Assembly (NCBI RefSeq): GCF_020524285.1
Contig: NZ_JAIVKX010000008.1
Span: 124,001-188,000 of the forward strand
DNA: 64,000 nucleotides
Origin: Alloyangia pacifica
Lineage (GTDB): Bacteria > Pseudomonadota > Alphaproteobacteria > Rhodobacterales > Rhodobacteraceae
Direction of reading: 5' to 3'
The notes beneath the pieces were generated by a model that searched no databases, had not been told where the DNA came from, and worked only from the letters and a program-made list of their open reading frames with translations. The first letter of the stretch is position 1. The number at the start of each line of letters is the position of its first letter. A program made the translations under genes and the position numbers. Shown piece by piece: positions 11,378 through 30,018 of this stretch.

Positions 11378-12210
11378 TATAGCGCCCCCTCTGCCACGGC
11401 CTTGCCCTCGACCGGGCGGGCCGCTGCCGCCGGGCGCGGCGCGGCGGCGGTCGCGGTCGCACGCTCGTAGCTGAGCAGGCGCATCTCGCCGTCGAAATCC
11501 TCGGCCAGCGCGGTCAGGCTGTCGACCCAATCGCCGCAATTGGCATAGACGACGCCGTTGTGCCGGCGCAGGCCGGGCTTGTGCGAATGGCCGCAGATCA
11601 CCCCCATGGCCCCGGCAGCCCCCGCAAGCTTGGTCAGCTTGCGCTCGAACCCGTCGCCCATCGCCAGCAGGGTGTTGGCCCCTGCAAGCACCCGGTCGAC
11701 GAAGCTCTGCTCCCATTCGGTGAGCCCGGCGCGGCGGCGCAGGTAGCCGTCGAGCTGGCGCAGCAGCGCATCGGCGCGGCTGCCAAGACGGGTCATGAAA
11801 TGCCAGCGCAGGATGCGCGGATCGCATTGGTCGCCGTGCAGCACCAGGTAGCGCCGCCCGTCCGCCGCGGTGTGGATCACCGCCTCGCGCAGCTCCCAGC
11901 CCTCGATCGCCGCGCCCGGATCGCGCATCGTCGCATCGTGGTTGCCCGGCAGGTAGACGACCCGCGTGCCCGCCGTCGCCCGTGCCCGCAGCTCGGCCAT
12001 GATCGCGTCATGCGCCGCGGCCCAGTGTAGGCGCCCGCCGTGCCACAGGTCGAAGATGTCGCCGACGAGGTAGATGGTCTCGGCGTCGACGCCGCGCAGG
12101 AACTCTAGGATGGGTGCGGCGCGGCAGGCGCGCGCGCCTAGGTGCAGGTCGGAAATGAACAGGCTGCGGTAAGGCTTGCGAGCGTTCAGGGCATCGGAAA
12201 AGGTCGGCAT
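11377..12210 (-). CDS. Calcineurin-type metallophosphoesterase, UDP-2,3-diacylglucosamine diphosphatase/PlcP-like
   Basis: This metallophosphoesterase has all family metal ligands: SDLHLG, GDIFDLW, GNHD and GHSHKP, plus LHGDQCD. The overall pattern resembles the LpxH-related group that includes the rhizobial and roseobacter PlcP phospholipase C, which releases diacylglycerol from phospholipids during phosphate limitation. The Ala/Pro-rich tail is non-catalytic. Two starts are possible: ATG 12210 (used here) and GTG 12228, six codons earlier; neither has an ideal ribosome site. It heads the five-gene lipid operon. The alternative, an LpxH role in lipid A synthesis, is less favoured because of the downstream lipid glycosyltransferases. 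Confidence 0.8.
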   Translation of the reverse strand: MPTFSDALNARKPYRSLFISDLHLGARACRAAPILEFLRGVDAETIYLVGDIFDLWHGGRLHWAAAHDAIMAELRARATAGTRVVYLPGNHDATMRDPGAAIEGWELREAVIHTAADGRRYLVLHGDQCDPRILRWHFMTRLGSRADALLRQLDGYLRRRAGLTEWEQSFVDRVLAGANTLLAMGDGFERKLTKLAGAAGAMGVICGHSHKPGLRRHNGVVYANCGDWVDSLTALAEDFDGEMRLLSYERATATAAAPRPAAAARPVEGKAVAEGAL

Positions 12211-12372
12211 CCGGGCATGTTCCTTCACTGTTCGCCCGCCTTATGGCGTCTCGATGTATCGTCAGTGTGACGCTGCATCCGCGAGAACGTGAATCGGGCG
12301 CCAAAGGTTCCCGCTCAGCCAGAAATTCCTGTTCTTTCCCATACTTCTCGATGGATCACCGCAGCAAGATAC

Positions 12373-12396
12373 GCCCGGCCCGCTGGGTGGCCGGGC
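12373..12396 (-). terminator. GC-rich hairpin after the barrel-like protein gene
   Basis: GCCCGGCC at 12373-12380 pairs with GGCCGGGC at 12389-12396 across an 8-base loop, just downstream of the 12410 stop on the minus strand. There is no T tract, so termination is uncertain. Confidence 0.4.
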
Positions 12397-12409
12397 AGCG
12401 CCCGGCGCC

Positions 12410-13210
12410 TCACTTGGGGAAGAGCAGCGTCACGCCGAAGCGCGCGCCCCAGCCCTCGGGACCGTTCGGCGCGGAGTCGGCGTAGTAGCGCACCCCGCCC
12501 TGCCAGCTCACCGGCGTGCCGCCGATGTTGGTCAGCTTGGAGGCCAGCAACCCGATCGGCGCCGAGTCGGTGTCGTTGACCCAGTCATGCGTCCACTCGG
12601 CCTGCAGCGTCGCGGTCCAGCCGTTGTCGTAGGCATAGGCCATGAACGGCTGGGTGAAGGTCGTATCGATCTCCACCGGCCCGTCCCAGTCCCACAGGTG
12701 GTTGGCGAGCACGCCCAGCGTCCAGGGGCCGCTCTGCTTGAGAACCACGCCGGTCACACCCGCGGCGAAGGTATCGAGCCCGAGGTTGTCCTCGGTGGCT
12801 GTCGGGAACAGGAAGGCCGGACCTACACCCCAGATCAGACCGCCCGGGCTCGGCGTCGGCGAGAAGAAGAAGCTCTGCGTGGTGTCGCCCAGCCCCCAGT
12901 CATCCTCGCCCTCCGAAGGCAGGTTGTATTGCGACACGACGGGCACGATCGTGCGCGAGATCAGGTTCCAGCCGCCGCCGAGATCGAAGGGGATGACCGG
13001 CTGGATGTTCATCGTCCAGCGCTCGCCCTTGTCGTCCGGCCCGATGTTGTCATCGAAGTTGAACTGGAAGGGCACGGAGATCAGCGAGGCCACCGGGTTC
13101 GAGAGCTGCTTCTGGAGATCCGCCGCATCCGACGGGGCTTGTGCCAGGGCTGGGCTTGCAAGCAGTGCCGCGGCAGTGCCGACCGCCGCCACTCGGGGAA
13201 AATGGGTCAT
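12410..13210 (-). CDS. Secreted outer-membrane beta-barrel-like protein, unknown function
   Basis: The 266-residue product has a clear Sec signal peptide (MTHFPRVAAVGTAAALLASPALA). The mature part is rich in alternating Trp, Phe, Tyr and Gly (FNFDDNIG, GGGWNLISRTIVPVV, FFFSPTPSPGG), ends in a Phe-Pro-Lys C-terminus and reads like a short outer-membrane barrel. Proteins of this pattern are often labelled transporter or neuromedin-like in proteobacteria, without proof. The start at 13210 is favoured by GGAG seven bases upstream; two upstream in-frame Mets (13234, 13258) lack this. It stands alone. I cannot assign a substrate. Confidence 0.75.
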   Translation of the reverse strand: MTHFPRVAAVGTAAALLASPALAQAPSDAADLQKQLSNPVASLISVPFQFNFDDNIGPDDKGERWTMNIQPVIPFDLGGGWNLISRTIVPVVSQYNLPSEGEDDWGLGDTTQSFFFSPTPSPGGLIWGVGPAFLFPTATEDNLGLDTFAAGVTGVVLKQSGPWTLGVLANHLWDWDGPVEIDTTFTQPFMAYAYDNGWTATLQAEWTHDWVNDTDSAPIGLLASKLTNIGGTPVSWQGGVRYYADSAPNGPEGWGARFGVTLLFPK

Positions 13211-21517: not shown

Positions 21518-22123
21518 TCAGAGCACCTTGCAGGCGTCTTCCATCTTGAGGCGCGGCAGGCGGTCGAAGACCTTCGAGGGCTCGCCGTAGCCGAGGTTGA
21601 CCATGAAGTTCACCTTCCAGGTGGTGCCGGCAAGGAAGGTCTCTTCGACCAGCTTGGCATCGAAGCCGGACATCGGGCCGCAGTCGAGGCCGAGCGCGCG
21701 CGCCGCCAGCATCAGGTAGCCGCCCTGCAGCGAGGAGTTGCGGAAGGCGGTCTCGGTGATCATCGCCTCGGAGCCGGTGAACCAGGGCTTGGCGTCCACA
21801 TGCGGGAAGAGCTCGCCGAGCTTCTCGTAGAACTCCATGTCCTGGCACACGATGACGGTGACCGGGGCGGTCATAGTCTTCTCGCGGTTGCCGCTGGAGA
21901 GCGCCGGCGAGAGCTTCTCCTTGGCCTCCTGGCTGCGGATGAAGACGAAACGCGCCGGCGAGCAGTTGGCCGAGGTCGGGCCCATCTTCACCAGGTCGTA
22001 GAGCTGCTCGAGGATATCCTCGGGGATGTCCTTGTCCTGCCAGGCGTTCTGGCTGCGGGCTTCAAGAAACAGCGTGTCGAGCGCCGTTGCATCGAGCGCG
22101 CCGGTGGGGAGGAGGTCTTTCAT
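21518..22123 (-). CDS. rutE: Malonic semialdehyde reductase-like nitroreductase (RutE/HadB family)
   Basis: In the Rut pathway RutE reduces toxic malonic semialdehyde to 3-hydroxypropionate with NAD(P)H and FMN. The 201-residue product matches RutE in size and pattern: [14 protein letters not shown] near the start, [16 protein letters not shown] (FMN contact region, about residues 48-63), an [36 protein letters not shown] core and a [10 protein letters not shown] end. It is the last gene of the minus-strand unit 66-residue protein - amidase - rutE, 19 bases after the amidase stop, and it ends at a clear terminator. The pairing with rutA and rutF on the other side of the regulator supports the assignment. 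Confidence 0.87.
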
Positions 22124-22142: not shown

Positions 22143-23501
22143 TCAAGCGGGTTCCGCCAGCGCGGCTTCCACCGGCTGGCGCGAGATTTCAAGGGTTTGC
22201 GCGAGATCGGCGATCAGGTCCTCCGACCCGCGCGGCCCCATGATCTGGAGGCTGAGCGGGCCGTCCGAGGTCCAGGCGACCGGCAGCGAGAGCACCGGCA
22301 GGCCGAGGATCGAGCCGGGGCGGGTGAAGCCGGTCATGCCGGAGATCATCCGGGCGATCTCGGTGCCCTCTGCATGGACCAGCACCTCGGCCTGCGGCGC
22401 CACGTCGGCGAGGCCGGGCAGGATCACCAGGTCGGCGGCCCCGAAAATCTCCTCGGCGGTGCGCGCCATGGCGATCTCGCGGATCTGCCGGGCGCGCAGG
22501 TAGGCCTGGGCGGAGATGCCCGCCGCCTGCGCGAGCCGCGCGCGCACCTGGGTGCCGTAGGTCTCGGGGCAGTCGCGCAGCCGGTCGGCGTGCACCGTGG
22601 CGGCCTCGGCGATGGCAATGACATTGGCGGGTTCGGTGAGGTCCGAGAAATACCCCATGTCGAGCGAGACGAGGTCATGCCCCTGCCCCGCCAGCGCGCC
22701 CCGGGTCTCGGCGAGCGCGGTGCGCATCCGGTCCGAGATGCCCTCGACGAAGCCGCCGCGGTCGAAGGCGATGCGCAGCTTGCGCGGGGGCTCGGCCTGC
22801 GCCCGTGTCCTGCCGCCCGAGATCACCGAGAGCACGCGGCGCGCGCAGTCGACGGAGGCGGCGAGCGGGCCGACGGTGTCCTGCGTCCAGCTCAGCGGCA
22901 TGGCTCCGGTGAGCGGCACGAGGCCGAGGCCGGGCTTGAAGCCGACCACGCCGTTGCAGGCCGCGGGCACGCGGATCGAACCGCCGGTGTCCGAGCCGAG
23001 CGCCGCGGGCACCAGCCTCATGCCGACCGCCACGCCCGAGCCGCTCGAGGAACCGCCGGGCACGCCGCCCGGCACCGCCGGGTTCTCGGGCATGCCGTGG
23101 TGATGGTTCTGCCCGGTCGGCCCCATGGCGAACTCCGACATCTGCAGGCGGCCGAAGTCCACCGCCCCCGCCGCATCGAGCCGCTCCAGCACCGTCGCGG
23201 TGCCGGTCGCGGTCTTGCGCGCGGACGGGTGGCCGCCGAAGCCGACGGTCGATCCCTTGCGGTCGAACATGTCCTTATGCGCCATGGGCACGCCGGCGAG
23301 CGGTCCCAGCGGCTTGCCCTCGCGCCGGGCGCGGTCCGAGAGAACGGCCTGCTCATAGGCGCGCTCCCATTCCAGACGCTGGAACGGCGAGAGCGTGCCG
23401 CGGGTGGTGATCCGGGACTGCAGTTCCGTGAGCAGCGCGGTGGCGGTGGTCTCGCCCGACTCGAGGCGCGAAAGGAGGCCGGCGATGGTCACCCCGCTCA
23501 T
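22143..23501 (-). CDS. Amidase-signature family hydrolase (amidase 1 of the rut-like locus)
   Basis: This 452-residue cytoplasmic amidase has the Ser-cis-Ser-Lys triad: Lys in GVPMAHKDMFDRKG (near residue 76), the cis-Ser in VPGGSSSGSGVAVG and the nucleophile in GSDTGGSIRVPAACNG. It hydrolyses an amide, ureide or carbamoyl compound; the sequence does not say which. Its ATG overlaps the stop of the 66-residue gene by four bases (ATGA), so the two are translationally coupled, which is reminiscent of amidases that need a tiny partner such as AtzE-AtzG. It shares the operon with rutE and presumably acts on an intermediate of the same pathway. Confidence 0.88.
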   Translation of the reverse strand: MSGVTIAGLLSRLESGETTATALLTELQSRITTRGTLSPFQRLEWERAYEQAVLSDRARREGKPLGPLAGVPMAHKDMFDRKGSTVGFGGHPSARKTATGTATVLERLDAAGAVDFGRLQMSEFAMGPTGQNHHHGMPENPAVPGGVPGGSSSGSGVAVGMRLVPAALGSDTGGSIRVPAACNGVVGFKPGLGLVPLTGAMPLSWTQDTVGPLAASVDCARRVLSVISGGRTRAQAEPPRKLRIAFDRGGFVEGISDRMRTALAETRGALAGQGHDLVSLDMGYFSDLTEPANVIAIAEAATVHADRLRDCPETYGTQVRARLAQAAGISAQAYLRARQIREIAMARTAEEIFGAADLVILPGLADVAPQAEVLVHAEGTEIARMISGMTGFTRPGSILGLPVLSLPVAWTSDGPLSLQIMGPRGSEDLIADLAQTLEISRQPVEAALAEPA

Positions 23502-23698
23502 GCGGCGCCCTCCGCAAAGGGATCGGTGGCCGCCAGCGCGCCGCAGCGTCCCGAGGGGCGCAGCGGGCCGTCGCCAGGCAGCGCGAGCAGCGGGTTGGCG
23601 AAGATGTCAGCCTCGACCCGGGCGCGTTGATCCTGCGCGATGGCGCGCTCACCCTCGGAGGGGGCGCGGCCCAGAAGGGCGGTCAGCTCCTGTTCCAT
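23498..23698 (-). CDS. 66-residue protein translationally coupled to amidase 1
   Basis: The frame runs MEQELTALLGRAPSEGERA to DPFAEGAA, with AAGGA eight bases before the ATG. Its first half is helical and charged; its second half is Pro/Leu-rich (NPLLALPGDGPLRPSG). Position and size resemble the AtzG subunit (DUF4089) that precedes the AtzE amidase in the cyanurate pathway and lets it form a complex. I do not see a convincing DUF4089 sequence match, so the analogy rests on context. It is probably a structural or regulatory partner of the amidase. Confidence 0.65.
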   Translation of the reverse strand: MEQELTALLGRAPSEGERAIAQDQRARVEADIFANPLLALPGDGPLRPSGRCGALAATDPFAEGAA

Positions 23699-24105
23699 GT
23701 TCGGGGTCCTTTCCCAGCGGCTCCGGGGCGGCTGACTGATGGGGGCTTGGGGGTATCTGCTGATCCGGCAGCGCGGCGGGGAAAAGGGGACGCGGGGAGG
23801 AATGCGGCGGCGGGACGCGCTCTGCCCAGCCGGTGACCGCATCCGCGCGTGGCGTGATGAGAAAATGGTCGCGGGCAGGAGCGCGGGAGGTCTGCCGCTG
23901 GGGGGTGTACTGGGGCTCTCATCTTCTGCGCTGTTTCCGGGGCCGATGCCATGTGACGTGTTCGCTGGACGAAGCGACACGAACATTGTCCGGACTTATT
24001 CAGACTAGTGTCAACGAGTCGGGTGTGACTCCACCGCGGGATTTTGCAGTAAGTGCACAATTGCCCGGAATCTGACCACCGAGGCCCCAGCCTTCTACGC
24101 CGGAC
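23699..24105. other. 407-bp gap holding the promoter and a long leader for the amidase-rutE operon
   Basis: I find no gene here. The promoter/operator at 23985-24014 would give a leader of roughly 280 bases before the 66-residue gene. Open frames in both directions are Pro/Arg-rich without ribosome sites. A half-site TAAGTCCGG overlaps the MFS stop codon near 24100-24109. Confidence 0.5.
23985..24014 (-). promoter_or_regulatory. Promoter with overlapping GTCCGGAC operator for the amidase-rutE operon
   Basis: On the minus strand there is a consensus -35 TTGACA (24014-24009), an 18-base spacer and a -10-like GACAAT (23990-23985). The spacer and -10 contain AATAAGTCCGGACAATG, whose core GTCCGGAC (23988-23995) is shared with the other operators of this locus. 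A repressor bound here would block the promoter. Confidence 0.65.
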
Positions 24106-25344
24106 TTATGCGGACGCCACGTCGCGGGCCTGCGCCCGCATCTGTCCCCAGGACAGCGCCGCTCCGAGGAAGCCCACAGAGGAGAACAGCGTGAAGCCGA
24201 GCCCGTAGTCGCCGACCAGCCCGTAGATGAAGGCAAAGCAGCTCGGCCCGAGGATCACCCCGACAAAGGTATAGACCAGCAGGGCGCCGGTGTTGGCGCC
24301 GACCTTGCCCTTGGGCGCGGTGCGCGCCGCGGCGGCGAGGAAGACGCCGTTCCAGCCAGAGGCGACGCCGCCGAGCCCGGCCAGCAGCATCACCTGCAGC
24401 GGTGCCGGGAAGATGCCAATCCAGTTCAGCGAGAAGAGAATGCACCCGGCGATGAAACCGATGATGCTCAGCGTCCGGAAGCCGCCGAGACGGTCCGCCG
24501 CCACGCCCCAGGCGACGCGGCCGATGGCGCCGAGCATCTGCGACGCCGCCGCCACGCTGCCCGCCGCCACCAGCGTCCAGCCATGCGCGACCAGCATCAC
24601 GACGATGAAGGCCGTAGCGATGAGCTGCAGCGCCGAGTAGAGGCACCCGAGCAGCGCCAGCGTGCGCAGGCGCGGGTTCGACAGGATCGCCTGTTGCTCG
24701 CGCAGCATGCGGCGCCAGACGCCCTCGGTGGCAACGCCGCGCTGGGTCGGCTCGGGCCGGTCGACGAGCAGCGACCAGAGCAGCAGCAGCGCCGGCGGCA
24801 CCGCCGCCAGCACCAGCGCGCTCTGCCATCCCGCGCCGAGCGCCACCGCCAGCGCGGGCAGCAGCACGTTGGCCACCACCGCCCCCAGCGGCACGCCGCT
24901 TTGCTTGATCGAGAAGACGAGGCTCTGGCGCGGGCGCGGCGTGGTGCGGTGCAGGATGACCGAGGAGGCCGGGTTGTTGAGCCCGTAGCCGATGCCGAAA
25001 AGCAGCGACGCCAGCACCATTAGCACGGGCACCGCGCTGGCCAGCATCAGCAGGCCGAGCACGAAGATCGCCAGTTCCAGCCGGATCACCCGCTCGGCGC
25101 GCAGGGTTTCGACCACGCCCCCCGCGAAGGCCGAGGCGAACATGCCCGCGAAGTAGATCAGGCTGATCTGGTAGCCGATCCAATGCGCGCCGATGCCGAG
25201 GCTGGCGGCGGCCTCCGGCGCCAGGGCGGTCAGCGCGAGGATGCTGCAGGTGGCCGCCACCTGCACCAGCGTCATGATCGCCAGCGGCTTGATCCAAAGG
25301 CTCGGCGCGATCGGGGCGCCCTGGGTCGACAAGCTGTCGCTCAT
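24106..25344 (-). CDS. Major facilitator superfamily transporter
   Basis: This 412-residue permease has twelve hydrophobic segments and the usual MFS layout, with a central basic loop near residue 200 (VDRPEPTQRG). It begins MSDSLSTQGAPIAPS. It is the likely importer for the substrate of this locus, replacing the RutG uracil permease of E. coli, to which it is unrelated. The operator AAGTCCGGACTT lies only seven bases before its start codon, so the repressor would cover its translation start region as well. It is divergent from the GntR gene. Confidence 0.88.
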   Translation of the reverse strand: MSDSLSTQGAPIAPSLWIKPLAIMTLVQVAATCSILALTALAPEAAASLGIGAHWIGYQISLIYFAGMFASAFAGGVVETLRAERVIRLELAIFVLGLLMLASAVPVLMVLASLLFGIGYGLNNPASSVILHRTTPRPRQSLVFSIKQSGVPLGAVVANVLLPALAVALGAGWQSALVLAAVPPALLLLWSLLVDRPEPTQRGVATEGVWRRMLREQQAILSNPRLRTLALLGCLYSALQLIATAFIVVMLVAHGWTLVAAGSVAAASQMLGAIGRVAWGVAADRLGGFRTLSIIGFIAGCILFSLNWIGIFPAPLQVMLLAGLGGVASGWNGVFLAAAARTAPKGKVGANTGALLVYTFVGVILGPSCFAFIYGLVGDYGLGFTLFSSVGFLGAALSWGQMRAQARDVASA

Positions 25345-25351
25345 TCGCGTA

Positions 25352-25363
25352 AAGTCCGGACTT
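25352..25363 (-). promoter_or_regulatory. Operator AAGTCCGGACTT in front of the MFS transporter
   Basis: A perfect 12-bp palindrome lies seven bases upstream of the transporter start. It is one of several copies of this motif around the GntR gene. Confidence 0.75.
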
Positions 25364-25404
25364 GAGTGGAAGGCGAGTAGGAGGGTGTCGGATGCTATAT
25401 CTAG

Positions 25405-25420
25405 ATAAGTCCGTACTTAT
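25405..25420 (+). promoter_or_regulatory. Operator ATAAGTCCGTACTTAT in front of the GntR gene
   Basis: The inverted repeat ATAAGT/ACTTAT has a CCGT centre, one base different from the perfect palindrome at 25352. Its centre is 55 bp from that of the other operator, about five helical turns. It lies 36 bases before the regulator start codon, consistent with autoregulation. Confidence 0.75.
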
Positions 25421-25456
25421 TAGCAAGAATGGGATCGACACCGAGGGGCGAAAGCG

Positions 25457-26212
25457 ATGATGACAGAGCAGGACATCGACCAGGATCCGGGCACGTCTAC
25501 CCCGCTTTACCTGCAGGTTGCGCACCGGCTGGAGCGCCAGATCGTTTCCGGCGAGCGCGCCGTGGGCAGCCTGCTTCCGCCCGAGGCAGAGCTTGCCGTG
25601 CAGCTCGGCGTCAGCCGCCACACGGTGCGCCAGGCCATCGCGCAGCTGCGCAAGCGCGGCATGCTGGCGGCCCGCAAGGGCGTGGGCACGCGGGTCGAGG
25701 CCGCCAAGCCCGACTGGCGCGACCGCTTCCGCAACGATTCGCGCGACGACCTGTTCGAATTCGCCAGCCAGAGCGAGTTCTTCATCCAGCAGAAGGAGCG
25801 GCGCGAAGTGCGCGGGAAAACCGCGGCCGAGATCGGCTGTCGCCCCGGGAAACGGCTGATCTACATGGCCGGACCGCGTCACTTCATCGGCGAACCTACG
25901 CCTTTTTGCTGGAACGAGGTCTACCTAGACCCGATCGCGCAGGAAGTGGTGGCCGAGATGACCGAGCTGCGGTCTTCGCTGTTCCAGCTCATCGAGCAGC
26001 GTACTGGCGAGCGGATTGAGGAAATCCAGCAGGAGATCCGCGCAGTGCAGATCTCGCCAGAGGTCTGCCATGCGATGAACCGGCCCGAGGGCACGATCGG
26101 CCTGCGCATCACTCGGCGGTACCTCGCCTCGGGCGGGCGACTGCTGGAATACGCGATCCAGACCTCGCCCGACGACGCCTTCGCCTATCGCACGAATCTC
26201 TCCGCCGAGTGA
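25457..26212 (+). CDS. GntR-family transcriptional regulator with UTRA ligand domain (HutC subfamily)
   Basis: This 251-residue regulator has an N-terminal winged helix (PLYLQVAHRLERQIVSGE, LPPEAELAVQLGVSRHTVRQAIAQL, GVGTRVE, residues about 16-85). A C-terminal UTRA domain follows (about 100-248, with RRYLASGGRLLEYAIQTSPDDAF). UTRA domains bind pathway intermediates, as HutC binds urocanate. The gene is divergent from the MFS transporter and upstream of the rutA operon. Palindromes AAGTCCGGACTT occur in front of it and the other units, so it is very probably the local repressor. E. coli and rhizobial rut genes use the unrelated TetR-type RutR. Start: the first of two adjacent ATGs, nine bases after GAGGGG. 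Confidence 0.92.
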   Translation: MMTEQDIDQDPGTSTPLYLQVAHRLERQIVSGERAVGSLLPPEAELAVQLGVSRHTVRQAIAQLRKRGMLAARKGVGTRVEAAKPDWRDRFRNDSRDDLFEFASQSEFFIQQKERREVRGKTAAEIGCRPGKRLIYMAGPRHFIGEPTPFCWNEVYLDPIAQEVVAEMTELRSSLFQLIEQRTGERIEEIQQEIRAVQISPEVCHAMNRPEGTIGLRITRRYLASGGRLLEYAIQTSPDDAFAYRTNLSAE

Positions 26213-26301
26213 GCCAAGGGCGGGGGCTTGCGCGCTGCCCAAGCGAAGGCCAGCCCACGGCGCATCTGCACAGAAAATCATCAATGGCCCGGACGCCTCG
26301 C

Positions 26302-26317
26302 AAAAGTCCGGACTTTT
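26302..26317 (+). promoter_or_regulatory. Operator AAAAGTCCGGACTTTT upstream of rutA
   Basis: A perfect 16-bp palindrome, the longest of the set, lies 83 bases before the rutA start codon. Confidence 0.78.
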
Positions 26318-26355
26318 CCAAATTCCCCTCTGGACCAGCCACAAGGCAGCCGGAC

Positions 26356-26369
26356 TAAGTTCGGACATA
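26356..26369 (+). promoter_or_regulatory. Second, imperfect operator upstream of rutA
   Basis: TAAGTTCGGACATA resembles the TAAGTCCGGACTTA consensus with two changes. Its centre is about 53 bp from that of the perfect palindrome at 26302, close to five helical turns, so co-operative binding or looping is possible. Confidence 0.5.
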
Positions 26370-26400: not shown

Positions 26401-27480
26401 ATGGATATGGGTGTCTTCATCCCGATCGCGAACAACGGGTGGCTGATCTCCGAAGGCTCGCCGCAGTACATGGCGAGCTTCGACCTCAACAAGCAGGTGG
26501 TGCAGAAGGCCGAGAGCTACGGGCTGGAATTCGCGCTCTCGATGGTCAAGTTCCGTGGCTTCGGCGGCAAGACCGAGTTCTGGGACCACGCGCTGGAAAG
26601 CTTCACCCTGATGGCCGGCCTCGCCGCCGTGACCTCGGAAATCAAGCTCTTCGCCTCGACCGCCATCCTCACCCTGCCGCCCGCCATCGTGGCGCGCATG
26701 GCCTCGACGATCAGCTCGATCGCGCCGGGCCGCTTCGGCATCAACATCGTGACCGGCTGGGCCGAGGGCGAATACAGCCAGATGGGCCTCTGGCCGGGCA
26801 ACGAGTGGTTCGGCTACCGCTACGACTACGCCACCGAATACGTGCAGGTGATGAAGGATCTTTGGGGCCAGGGCAGCTCGGACTTCAAGGGCGAGCATTT
26901 CACCATGGCCGACTGCAAGCTCTCGCCGCCGCCGCAGGGCGATGTGGAGATCGTCGCCGCCGGCATGAGCCCGCGCGGCATGAAGTTCGCGGCCGAATAC
27001 GCCGACTACAACTTCATCCTCGGCGCGGGCATCAACACGCCCACGGCCTTTGCCGACAACGCCAAGATCCTGGTTGAGGCGGGCAAGGAATCCGGCCGCG
27101 ACGTAGGGGCCTACGTGCTGTTCATGGTGATCGCCGACGAGACCGACGAGGCGGCGATGGCGAAGTGGCAGAAGTATCACGACATGGCCGACATGGGCGC
27201 GCTGAAGTGGCTCATCGACCAGTCCAACGTCGACGAGGGCCGCGACGGCACCTCGACCGCCAAGCACATGGCGGTGCCCGAGGGCGCGGTGAACTTCAAC
27301 ATGGGCACGCTGGTCGGTTCCTACGCCACGGTCGCCAAGATGCTCGACGAGGCCGCCGCGGTCGAAGGCGTGAAGGGCATCATGATGACCTTCGACGACT
27401 TCCTGCTCGGCATGGATGCCTTCGGCGAGAATATCCAGCCGCTGATGCAGTCGCGCAGCCACAAGCTCAAGGCCGCCTGA
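26401..27480 (+). CDS. rutA: Pyrimidine monooxygenase RutA
   Basis: This flavin-dependent luciferase-fold monooxygenase uses a flavin-N5-peroxide to open the uracil ring between N3 and C4, giving ureidoacrylate. The 359-residue protein matches E. coli RutA along its whole length as I remember it: [90 protein letters not shown] and [20 protein letters not shown] lies seven bases before the ATG. It is the first gene of a plus-strand operon with an amidase, rutF and an isochorismatase-fold hydrolase, and two operator copies precede it. Preference for uracil, thymine or another pyrimidine cannot be read from the sequence. Confidence 0.93.
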
Positions 27481-27588: not shown

Positions 27589-28875
27589 ATGACCGATCCT
27601 TGCCGGCTCGATGCCACCACCGCCCGCGCGCTGATGCGCGACGGGCGGCTCACCCCGCGCGAGCTGACCCGCGCCTGCCTCGCCCGCATCGCCGCGCGCG
27701 ACGGCGAGATCCGCGCCTGGCTGAGCCTCAACCCGCGCGCCGAGGCCGAAGCCTCGGCCATCGCCGCCTCGGATCCGCGCCCGCTGGCTGGCATCCCCGT
27801 GGGCATCAAGGACGTGATAGACACGGCGGACCTGCCGACCACCCACAACTCCCCGCTCTACAGCACCCGCCGCCCGAGCGACGATGCGCCCTGCGTCGAG
27901 ATCCTGCGCGCCGCCGGTGCGATCATCCTCGGAAAGACCGACACCACCGAGTTCGCCGCCGCCGGGCGCAACGCGATGACCGGCTGCCCCGCCGATCCGT
28001 CGCGCACCTCCGGCGGCTCCTCGGCCGGTTCTGCCGCCGCCGTGGCGGATTTCCACGTTCCGCTGGCGCTCGGCACCCAGACCGGCGGCTCGACAATCCG
28101 CCCCGCCTCCTTCTGCGGCACCCCGGCGATGAAGCCGAGCTGGGGGCTGATCTCGGCCGAGGGGGTGAAGCTCTATGCCACCAGCCTCGACACCGTGGGG
28201 CTCTATGCCCGCTCCTACGACGACCTCGCCTTGCTGGGTGATCTCTACGGCTTCCCGGAGGCTGGAATGCCCCCGGCCCGCCCGAAGCTTGCGCTGTGCC
28301 TGACACCCTATGCCGACGAGCTGGCGCCCGAGGCGCTGGACCTCATGCAGAGCCTGCCCGAACGGCTAGCCGGCGTCGCCGACACCGAGTGGCTGCAACT
28401 GCCCGCCGGGATGGGGGACCTCGACGCGCTGCACCGCTGCGTGCAGATGAGCGAGGGCGCCGCCGCGATGCGCAACCTGCGCCACCGCGGCGCGCTGGTG
28501 CACCGGGATTTCCTGAACCGGGCCAACCGCAGCGAAGGCCATACCGCCCGCCAGATGTTCGAGGCCTACGACAGGCTGGCGGACCACCGCCGCGCCTTCG
28601 AGTTCCTGGCGGCCCCCTATGACGCGGTGATCGCCCCCGCAGCGCCCGGTTTCGCGCCGCTCGGGCGCGGCGCGGGCAAGCCAAAGTTCAATGCGCTCTG
28701 GACGGCGATGCAACTGCCCTGCATTCATGTTCCAGCAGTTTCGCAACCGCTGCCGCTCGGCGTACAGCTCGTGGCGGCGCGGGCGCAGGACAGCCGGGTG
28801 ATCCGGCTTGCCGCCCAGATTGCCCCGGCGTTGGCGTCCTCCCCGCCCGCCGTGACCGAAGGAAAGGACGACTGA
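27589..28875 (+). CDS. Amidase-signature family hydrolase (amidase 2 of the rut-like locus)
   Basis: This 428-residue amidase has Lys in GIPVGIKDVIDTADLPT (near residue 74), the cis-Ser in RTSGGSSAGSAAAVAD and the nucleophile in GTQTGGSTIRPASFCGTPAMKPS. The C-terminal half is shorter and different from amidase 1, so the two are not a recent duplication. Its stop overlaps the rutF start (TGATG), showing translational coupling with the flavin reductase that feeds RutA. It probably hydrolyses the ureido or carbamoyl product of ring opening, or converts an amide pro-substrate; this is inferred from position only. Confidence 0.88.
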   Translation: MTDPCRLDATTARALMRDGRLTPRELTRACLARIAARDGEIRAWLSLNPRAEAEASAIAASDPRPLAGIPVGIKDVIDTADLPTTHNSPLYSTRRPSDDAPCVEILRAAGAIILGKTDTTEFAAAGRNAMTGCPADPSRTSGGSSAGSAAAVADFHVPLALGTQTGGSTIRPASFCGTPAMKPSWGLISAEGVKLYATSLDTVGLYARSYDDLALLGDLYGFPEAGMPPARPKLALCLTPYADELAPEALDLMQSLPERLAGVADTEWLQLPAGMGDLDALHRCVQMSEGAAAMRNLRHRGALVHRDFLNRANRSEGHTARQMFEAYDRLADHRRAFEFLAAPYDAVIAPAAPGFAPLGRGAGKPKFNALWTAMQLPCIHVPAVSQPLPLGVQLVAARAQDSRVIRLAAQIAPALASSPPAVTEGKDD

Positions 28876-29366
28876 TGGACCCCAATGATTTCAAATCCGG
28901 CATGCGCCGCCTTGCCGCTGGCGTCTCGCTGATCACCTGCGAGTGCAACGGCGTGCGGCACGGGCTGATCGCGACCGCCGTGACCTCGCTCAGCGCCGAG
29001 CCGCCGAGCCTGCTGATCTGCGTCAACGCCTCGGCCTCGATCCACGAGCACCTGAGCGAGGCCGAGTCCTTCTGCGTCAACGTGCTCTCGCGCGAGCAGC
29101 AGGACGTGGCGACCCGCTTTGCCACCCCCAAGGATCGCGAGACCCGTTTCGAGATCGGCGACTGGTCCGAGCTGGAAACCGGCGCCCCCGCCCTGCGCGG
29201 CGCGCAGGTGAGCTTCGACTGCCGCCCGGCGCAGAAGAGCGTGTTCGGCACGCACACGATCTTCATCGGCGAGGTGGTCGCGGTGACCGACTGGGGCAGC
29301 GCCTCGGACCCGCTGCTCTACCATGACGGCCGGTTCGAGAGCCTCACCAAGACCGAAAGCGTCTGA
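28875..29366 (+). CDS. rutF: NADH:flavin reductase RutF
   Basis: This 163-residue short-chain flavin reductase supplies reduced FMN to RutA. It shows the family pattern FKSGMRRLAAGVSLITCECNG, the flavin-binding ATAVTSLSAEPPSLLICVNASASIHEHL and the C-terminal GEVVAVTDWGSASDPLLYHDGRF. Length equals that of E. coli RutF within a residue or two. It overlaps the amidase 2 stop codon and is followed within one base by the hydrolase gene. Confidence 0.92.
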   Translation: MDPNDFKSGMRRLAAGVSLITCECNGVRHGLIATAVTSLSAEPPSLLICVNASASIHEHLSEAESFCVNVLSREQQDVATRFATPKDRETRFEIGDWSELETGAPALRGAQVSFDCRPAQKSVFGTHTIFIGEVVAVTDWGSASDPLLYHDGRFESLTKTESV

Positions 29367-29367
29367 G

Positions 29368-30018
29368 GTGAGCGGCGCGGCGGAGAATTACGCGGGGGTC
29401 TATGACCGGTCGGTGGGCTTCGGCGCGCGACCGGCGCTGCTGCTGATCGACTTTGCCCAGGCCTATTACGACAAGACCTGCCCGCTCTTTGCCGGCGCCG
29501 GCGCCGTCTCCGCGCTGGCCGCTGCGCTCGAGCTGCGCGCGGCCGCCCGGGCGGCGGGCGTGCCGGTCATTCACACCCGCATTGCGCTGCACCCGAGCGG
29601 CATCGACGGCGGGCGCTTCTTCGAGAAGGCGGCGCCGCTCGAGGCCTTCCTGCCCGGCCGCGCCACCGCCGAATTCGCCGAAGGGCTGGTGCCCGAGGAC
29701 GACGAGCTGGTGGTGTCCAAGCAATACCCTTCGGCCTTCTTCGGCACCTCGCTGGCCTCGACCCTCACGGCGATGGGCTGCGACAGCGTGATCCTGACCG
29801 GGCTGACCACCTCGGGCTGCGTGCGCGCCTCCTGCGTCGACGCCATGAGCCACGGGTTCCGGACGCTGGTCGTGCGCGAGGCCTGCGGCGACCGCCACGA
29901 GGGGCCGCACGCGGCCAATCTCTTCGACATGAACGCGAAATATGCCGACGTGATCGGCATGGATGCCTGCCTTGCGGAGTTCGCGAAGTTAGGCGGCACC
30001 CTATCCGTCAGAGCCTGA
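29368..30018 (+). CDS. Isochorismatase-fold cysteine hydrolase, N-carbamoylsarcosine amidase/maleamate amidohydrolase-like
   Basis: This 216-residue cysteine hydrolase has the triad Asp in PALLLIDFAQAYYD, Lys in VVSKQYPSAFFGTSL and Cys in LTGLTTSGCVRASC. The order Y-x-D-x-x-C-P-L and S-A-F-F-G-T-S-L is that of N-carbamoylsarcosine amidase and maleamate amidohydrolase (NicF), not of RutB, although both share the fold. It is therefore a plausible stand-in for RutB, cleaving a carbamoyl or amide intermediate. The start is taken as GTG 29368, one base after the rutF stop; the frame is open upstream inside rutF. It ends at a strong terminator. Confidence 0.85.
   Translation: MSGAAENYAGVYDRSVGFGARPALLLIDFAQAYYDKTCPLFAGAGAVSALAAALELRAAARAAGVPVIHTRIALHPSGIDGGRFFEKAAPLEAFLPGRATAEFAEGLVPEDDELVVSKQYPSAFFGTSLASTLTAMGCDSVILTGLTTSGCVRASCVDAMSHGFRTLVVREACGDRHEGPHAANLFDMNAKYADVIGMDACLAEFAKLGGTLSVRA

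Follow-up and report, generated by a model that had tools for sequence, protein, structure and literature searches.

RutA is a leading example of flavin-N5-peroxide chemistry, and finding its gene is usually taken to mean that uracil is degraded under the control of RutR. A locus at positions 23985-26369 of a 64-kb stretch of an Alloyangia pacifica genome (the window; the genome, labelled G000, comprises 5.7 Mb in 49 contigs) raises the question of what such a gene signifies when it lies beside a gene for a GntR/UTRA regulator and behind copies of a short palindrome. The answer proposed here, with a probability of about 78%, is that the palindromes are operators of the locally encoded GntR/UTRA protein, which would repress four transcription units, one of them headed by the gene for a RutA paralogue (RutA2), and would probably also act in trans on the LysR gene (LysR3) of a further RutA-type cluster. 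The arrangement is shared by some marine bacteria. The genome sets searched were 20 genomes of the genus, 394 of the family, 385 sampled class-wide, and named genomes, among which the closest relative by regulator is A. pacifica DSM 26894 (GntR protein 95% identical).

The initial annotation had listed five palindromes, and all five were located as members of one putative operator family, with a representative ahead of each unit (Table 1). The 12-mer AAGTCCGGACTT occurs exactly at two of them, one copy being nested in a perfect 16-bp palindrome (AAAAGTCCGGACTTTT, 26302-26317). Sites were scored with a 20-bp weight matrix trained on 24 sites from nine loci of other genera, collected at up to 3 mismatches. 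All loci of the genus and the locus L079 were omitted from training, and at least one training member, a site at L052 (AATTCCGGGCGT), is probably no real site. The five top hits of this matrix in the window are the same five palindromes (28.3 to 18.0), and the next hit reaches 12.2. A decayed sixth copy, absent from the initial list, has better counterparts at about the same place in several relatives.

Bare counting of the 12-mer reveals no excess: at up to 3 mismatches the window holds 17 matches against 14.65 expected, and at up to 2 mismatches the genome holds 86 per strand against 117 for the reversed pattern. Even so, the quality and clustering of the sites are not a product of chance. 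Both copies of the exact 12-mer in the 5.7-Mb genome lie at the locus within 1 kb, as do three of the seven copies with at most 1 mismatch. No matrix score reaches 13 in 149 kb of control DNA, made up of the window outside the locus and other loci, and 3 Mb of third-order Markov sequence contain 2 sites reaching 15 and none reaching 17.

The palindrome also follows the GntR gene across genomes. Orthologues of the regulator are present in 5 of the 20 genus genomes (91-100% identity) in 10 of the 394 family genomes (E 1e-35 or better; six have at least 51% identity) and in named genomes, while the class-wide search of 385 genomes at E 1e-45 returned the source genome as the sole match. Fifteen orthologous loci with GntR at 50-100% identity were compared; the duplicate fetches L017/L045, L018/L046 and L036/L047 were each counted once, and L083-L086 (33-36% identity) were excluded. 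Counted from 200 nt upstream of the GntR gene to 250 nt downstream of it, 12 of these 15 loci carry the 12-mer at up to 2 mismatches (34 sites in total). With the 179 other palindromes composed of the same letters as a control, the mean was 0.36 and the highest count 8. GntR orthologues as low as about 50% in identity still have sites beside them, and in alignments the sites stand as islands within gaps that align poorly between genera. At the leftward unit, the site has at most 2 mismatches in 9 of the 12 loci examined and 3 mismatches in the remaining 3.

Within the genus, the five genomes with the exact 12-mer are the identical five that carry the GntR gene, and 8 of the 9 copies in the 20 genomes lie in the locus; the reversed pattern gives 4 hits in 4 genomes, a different set. 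A stricter 14-base pattern has 19 sites in the five GntR genomes against 2 in the other 15. For independent genomes, the five-genome agreement would arise by chance once in 15504; independence does not hold here. Family-wide, GntR and RutA2 co-occur in the same 6 of the 394 genomes. The spacing of the sites is at most suggestive of helical phasing: in the two gaps, most neighbouring sites lie 52-56 bp from each other, but intervals of 74, 65, 42, 11, 50, 4, 67 and 151 bp also occur, of which 74 and 65 are roughly in turn and the remainder not all. Pairs in the leftward region are 107-118 bp apart.

Absence of the motif from loci that keep the GntR gene, which the initial annotation had named as grounds for abandoning its proposal, failed to materialise; L079 is the weakest case, with only a weaker upstream pair. 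Several observations nonetheless weigh against the proposal. Three of the 15 loci (L051, L052 and L079) lack a site with 2 or fewer mismatches in the counted region; L051 and L052 possess 3-mismatch sites, while in L079 the two best matrix hits in 18 kb lie 345 nt (15.5) and 194 nt (11.5) upstream of GntR, and no site scoring at least 10 precedes rutA2. The genomes are related and hence not independent, so the evidence is weaker than the co-occurrence counts imply. Two matches away from the locus are as strong as the local sites and have no clear link to it: one at C12:32827 (22.6), and one scoring 19.0 in a phosphonate-transport region, which two genomes that do not carry the GntR gene also keep.

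Among the matches considered as further targets, four off-locus ones in the source genome at up to 1 mismatch (L003, L005, L006 and L007) and the single off-locus exact match in G011 (L097) offered no convincing promoter of a related gene, although L005 scores 22.6. The phosphonate-region site was likewise discarded as a second target, its strict pattern being kept in G007 and G012 without the GntR gene. That site (G000:C1:98444; L113, L122) lies between a membrane-protein gene and phosphonate-transport genes and is kept in seven related genus genomes. The gene of another UTRA regulator is found about 10 kb from it.

HutC-type operators have GT..AC halves. The regulator encoded amid the sites belongs to this subfamily by its architecture, an N-terminal GntR winged helix followed by a C-terminal UTRA domain, and by the palindromic GT..AC sites near its own gene in 12 of the 15 loci at up to 2 mismatches; it passed no NCBIfam equivalog cut-off among the 25 matches listed. 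In the structurally known relative NagR (PMC4333415), Arg48 reads G-4, Arg38 reads G-5 and Gly69 anchors the wing. These residues align with R54, Ala44 and G75 of the window protein. All 15 orthologues keep R54 and G75; at the Arg38 position, 14 have Ala and one has Ser. On the DNA side, 47 of 48 half-sites have G at -4, and 46 of 48 have A or T, not G, at -5. The missing Arg38-type arginine and the missing -5 guanine appear to go together, the contact being absent as the operator base at -5 would predict. Co-occurrence, conservation and the expected DNA-touching residues together support a tie between the operator family and the GntR/UTRA gene, and on comparative grounds the case for the regulon is good.

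The palindromes might instead be operators of a different regulator, with the GntR gene merely one of its targets. The phosphonate-region site kept in two genomes without GntR would suit such an arrangement, and the link between protein and palindrome is itself drawn from sequence. However, the restriction of the exact 12-mer, within the genus, to GntR genomes, the concentration of the 14-base pattern in those genomes (19 sites against 2 in the other 15), the fit of GntR residues and operator bases to the NagR contacts, and the presence of sites before a 36% relative of the GntR gene make a different regulator highly improbable.

How the GntR protein would act is indicated by the position of its sites. 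Two promoter-like matches were found, one per strand, against a mean of 0.3 in shuffled sequence. The initial annotation had stated, for the units where position could be judged, that sites overlap -10 or translation-start regions. The 23986 and 25352 sites overlap the second hexamers of the two matches, and 7 nt separate the end of the 25352 site from the start codon of the MFS gene. Repression with release by a ligand is the likely mode, judging from both position and protein family. An activator or dual-acting protein is improbable: the distal site of each pair does lie upstream of probable promoter regions and the paired spacing would suit activation or repression alike, but the overlap with both second hexamers and the proximity to the MFS start codon speak for repression, and NagR blocks transcription (PMC4333415).

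Under the repression proposed here, a GntR dimer would grip both GT..AC half-sites, and the unliganded protein would keep RNA polymerase off four units, namely gntR itself, the divergent MFS gene, rutA2-amidase-rutF-isochorismatase, and the leftward small ORF-amidase-rutE. Where operators are paired at a distance of about five helical turns, two dimers may act jointly. The compound that would release the protein is predicted to be a substrate or an intermediate from the RutA2 pathway, probably a cyclic amide, imide or ureide. The protein probably has a target in trans as well, the LysR gene belonging to the third RutA cluster, and would thereby head a small cascade.

Table 1. Putative operators, promoter-like matches and genes of the RutA2 locus, in window coordinates. 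Genes were matched to Pfam profiles and NCBIfam models, the latter run on nine window proteins.
Feature	Position	Strand	Details
Malonic semialdehyde reductase, RutE-type	21518..22123	-	NF003768 305.1 bits, cut-off 152
Amidase 2	22143..23501	-	Amidase 264.6 bits
Small ORF, 66 aa, first of leftward unit	23498..23698	-	tblastn matches beside amidase 2 in most relatives
Promoter-like TTGACA-18-GACAAT, leftward unit	23985..24014	-	Second hexamer overlapped by 23986 site
Putative operator of leftward unit	23986-23997		TTGTCCGGACTT, 2 mismatches to 12-mer; matrix 20.5
Decayed sixth operator copy (putative)	24096-24107		3 mismatches; matrix 8.9
MFS transporter gene	24106..25344	-	MFS_1 118.8 bits; no NCBIfam cut-off passed
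Promoter-like TCGACA-18-TAAAGT	25326-25355	+	Second hexamer overlapped by 25352 site
Putative operator before MFS gene	25352-25363		AAGTCCGGACTT, exact 12-mer; matrix 18.0
Putative operator before GntR gene	25407-25418		AAGTCCGTACTT, 1 mismatch; matrix 28.3, window best
GntR/UTRA (HutC-type) regulator, 251 aa	25457..26212	+	GntR 69.9 bits (cut-off 27), UTRA 49.7 bits (cut-off 23.8)
Putative distal operator before rutA2	26304-26315		AAGTCCGGACTT, exact 12-mer; matrix 22.3
Putative proximal operator before rutA2	26357-26368		AAGTTCGGACAT, 2 mismatches; matrix 21.4
rutA2, RutA paralogue	26401..27480	+	TIGR03612 608.9 bits, cut-off 498.3
Amidase 1	27589..28875	+	Amidase 198.3 bits
RutF-like flavin reductase	28875..29366	+	Flavin_Reduct 137.1 bits; RutF model 138.2, cut-off 254.75
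Isochorismatase-family hydrolase	29368..30018	+	Isochorismatase 115.4 bits; RutB model 38 bits vs 377.95

The genes so arranged do not constitute the genome's rut operon. Two further RutA-type genes exist in the genome, one at C17 (697.8 to 698.2 bits) and one at C9 (479.4 bits, under the cut-off of 498.3). The C17 gene heads a cluster (L087) in which RutA (698.2) is followed by RutB (376.1, cut-off 377.95), RutC (239.9, cut-off 169.1) and RutD (262.3, cut-off 238.5); there, a search allowing 2 mismatches found no 12-mer, and no matrix score exceeds 13. Conversely, none of RutB, RutC, RutD and RutF gave an over-cut-off match among the nine window proteins scanned, and the RutC and RutD models returned no match to any of them. 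The designation 'pyrimidine locus' given by the initial annotation is not supported in view of this separate rutABCD cluster, which lies on another contig and does not bear the motif. The regulator of the window locus is a GntR/UTRA protein and not a TetR protein, and the RutR model exceeds its cut-off in none of the 20 genus genomes. What the protein appears to control, because the genome has a separate rutABCD cluster and the window no over-cut-off RutB, RutC, RutD or RutF, is a RutA-paralogue cluster and not a rewired rut operon. The canonical cluster adjoins a RepC-like gene (L087 4831-5922; 79.3 bits, under cut-off) and may be situated on a plasmid-like replicon.

RutA2 is 61% identical to the canonical RutA of the same genome. 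In a tree of 27 sequences, from which L087 was removed as a duplicate of L061, canonical RutA including that of E. coli (100/99), RutA3, the protein encoded at C9 (100/100), and RutA2 (86/81) are separate; the unity of the RutA2 clade is moderately supported. The dioxygen pocket of RutA is formed by L65, T105, N134, V136 and F224, and a T105S variant of the E. coli enzyme retained about 80% activity (PMC7662398). RutA2 keeps the pocket as L46, S86, N115, V117 and F205, where the numbering offset of 19 was derived from the agreement of all five letters in E. coli RutA and F205 was read in the window protein only. From these residues, RutA2 should be an active enzyme of the flavin-N5-peroxide type.

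An ordinary uracil pathway with a swapped regulator would also account for a window in which the RutA and malonic semialdehyde reductase models exceed their cut-offs and in which RutA2 retains the dioxygen-pocket residues, with a Ser that is tolerated at position 105 (PMC7662398). It is nevertheless quite improbable, given the genome's own rutABCD cluster at C17, the lack of over-cut-off RutB, RutC, RutD and RutF among the nine window proteins, and the separation of RutA2 from canonical RutA including that of E. coli, for which support is moderate (86/81).

The cluster of the third RutA-type gene extends the proposed control beyond the window. It occupies positions 2862-8710 of L088 (G000:C9:22000-38000) and contains genes for a GcvA-like LysR protein, nitrilase-family and isochorismatase-family proteins, and a large MFS protein. 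Within 190 bp upstream of the LysR gene lie three matrix hits (17.3, 15.8 and 15.5); the same place in L128 of G011 has hits of 18.6, 18.3 and 17.1, and sites before LysR recur in the other syntenic clusters (L089, 17.6; L082, 21.6; L080, 22.7; L134, 17.9). An operator-like site precedes LysR3 in all six syntenic RutA3 clusters; a 70% relative in different surroundings (L135) shows no such site. In L080 and L082 the GntR gene occurs in the same stretch as RutA3, and in the other four clusters the two are apart, by about 609 kb in G257. All LysR3 sites were outside the matrix training set, although other sites of L080 and L082 were inside it. Of the 394 family genomes, 5 have RutA3, each belonging to the set of 6 with GntR and RutA2; in the genus it occurs in 3 of the 20 genomes, all with GntR. 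Because the LysR3 sites recur in syntenic clusters and RutA3 is confined to genomes with GntR and RutA2, the GntR protein probably also governs the LysR gene.

The initial annotation had regarded the regulon as self-contained, which is probably wrong in view of these sites. A strictly local regulon, in which another protein binds the LysR3 sites or they are leftovers, is rather doubtful. It draws on the LysR3 scores of this genome, which fall just below that of the weakest local site (18.0), and on the existence of strong off-locus matches with no clear meaning. Against it stand three sites in 190 bp, whereas 3 Mb of Markov sequence gave 2 that reached 15 and 149 kb of real DNA gave none that reached 13, together with the repeated occurrence of such sites in all six syntenic clusters, four of which lie away from GntR, and the restriction of RutA3 to 5 of 394 genomes, all with GntR and RutA2. 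Moreover, the nearest other GntR match in the genome, among those listed, is 40% identical over about 83 residues.

Beside the regulation of LysR3 in trans, a periplasmic binding protein gene is a weak candidate for a further target. An operator-like site (G000:C1:66662; L108) precedes it and scores 21.2. Across the five GntR genomes the site scores 21.2, 17.1, 18.5, 16.3 and, in G018, 6.3; in G007 and G012, which do not carry GntR, it scores 9.9 and 12.0. In G206 (L081 16624) a 74% relative of this gene adjoins the leftward unit, with a site of 15.1. L047 and L051 have ABC importer genes (binding protein, ATPase and permease, by Pfam) in the leftward unit, between its operator and the small ORF. 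There is no space for such genes in the window or in four genus relatives, yet the leftward operator is retained. The small ORF of the window has no Pfam or NCBIfam family match and possibly encodes a small amidase partner similar to AtzG. The malonic semialdehyde reductase is of the RutE type. In L051 a DHBP synthase gene of the riboflavin pathway (12136-12819) follows the rutA2-type unit, perhaps for flavin supply, and an ORF in L081 resembles it.

The more distant locus L083 (931-9218) encodes the 36% relative of the regulator, with sites of 20.9 and 16.8 before its gene. It is surrounded by genes for a PuuE-like protein (328.9 against 424.6), an isochorismatase-family hydrolase and an amidase match, and by a binding protein gene whose product is 47% identical to that of L047; no RutA2 match was found in it at E 1e-5. 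The comparison suggests that L083 and the RutA2 loci share a class of substrate, cyclic ureides or imides, opened by different enzymes. A broader scheme, possible although with less than even odds, would place a HutC-type repressor at the head of a network comprising RutA2 directly and RutA3 through a LysR protein encoded elsewhere. Together with the regulator, the two would form one co-inherited pathway, and both enzymes would open cyclic imide or ureide rings other than uracil. The 36% relative would serve a PuuE-like hydrolase and a related importer, the regulator following the class of substrate and not the enzyme.

Known systems resemble the locus in part. NagR/YvoA of Bacillus subtilis, which acts at dre operators (PMC4333415), has the same GntR and UTRA domains. 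The Arg48/G-4 and Gly69 wing contacts have counterparts in R54 and G75, and the local, divergently placed targets of the window fit the GntR/HutC family. Unlike NagR, the window regulator has Ala at the Arg38 position and operators with A or T at -5; its half-sites meet at CG, and its putative targets are RutA-type and amidase genes. RutR, a TetR-family regulator of pyrimidine catabolism (PMC5343134), shares with it the placement of a RutA-type gene under a local transcription factor and differs in protein family and operator. The canonical rut operon, that of E. coli or of L087 here, has in common with the window the RutA homologue (61%), a malonic semialdehyde reductase and a flavin reductase from one and the same domain family. 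In contrast to it, the window has two amidases, an isochorismatase-family hydrolase, an MFS gene and a GntR gene, and L087 has no operator of the GntR kind. Nothing on RutA under GntR control or on the 12-mer was found in the literature, in which subscription journals and preprints were thinly covered; the new elements are an operator code of the HutC type in clusters of RutA paralogues and the reappearance of that code at a second cluster.

In this organism, a gene scoring above the RutA model's cut-off belongs to a different cluster, while the genome keeps a separate rutABCD. The operator marks which genes belong together and points to a second and a third RutA-type pathway, and release of the repressor from a defined 12-mer would provide a ready assay for finding the substrate of the pathway.

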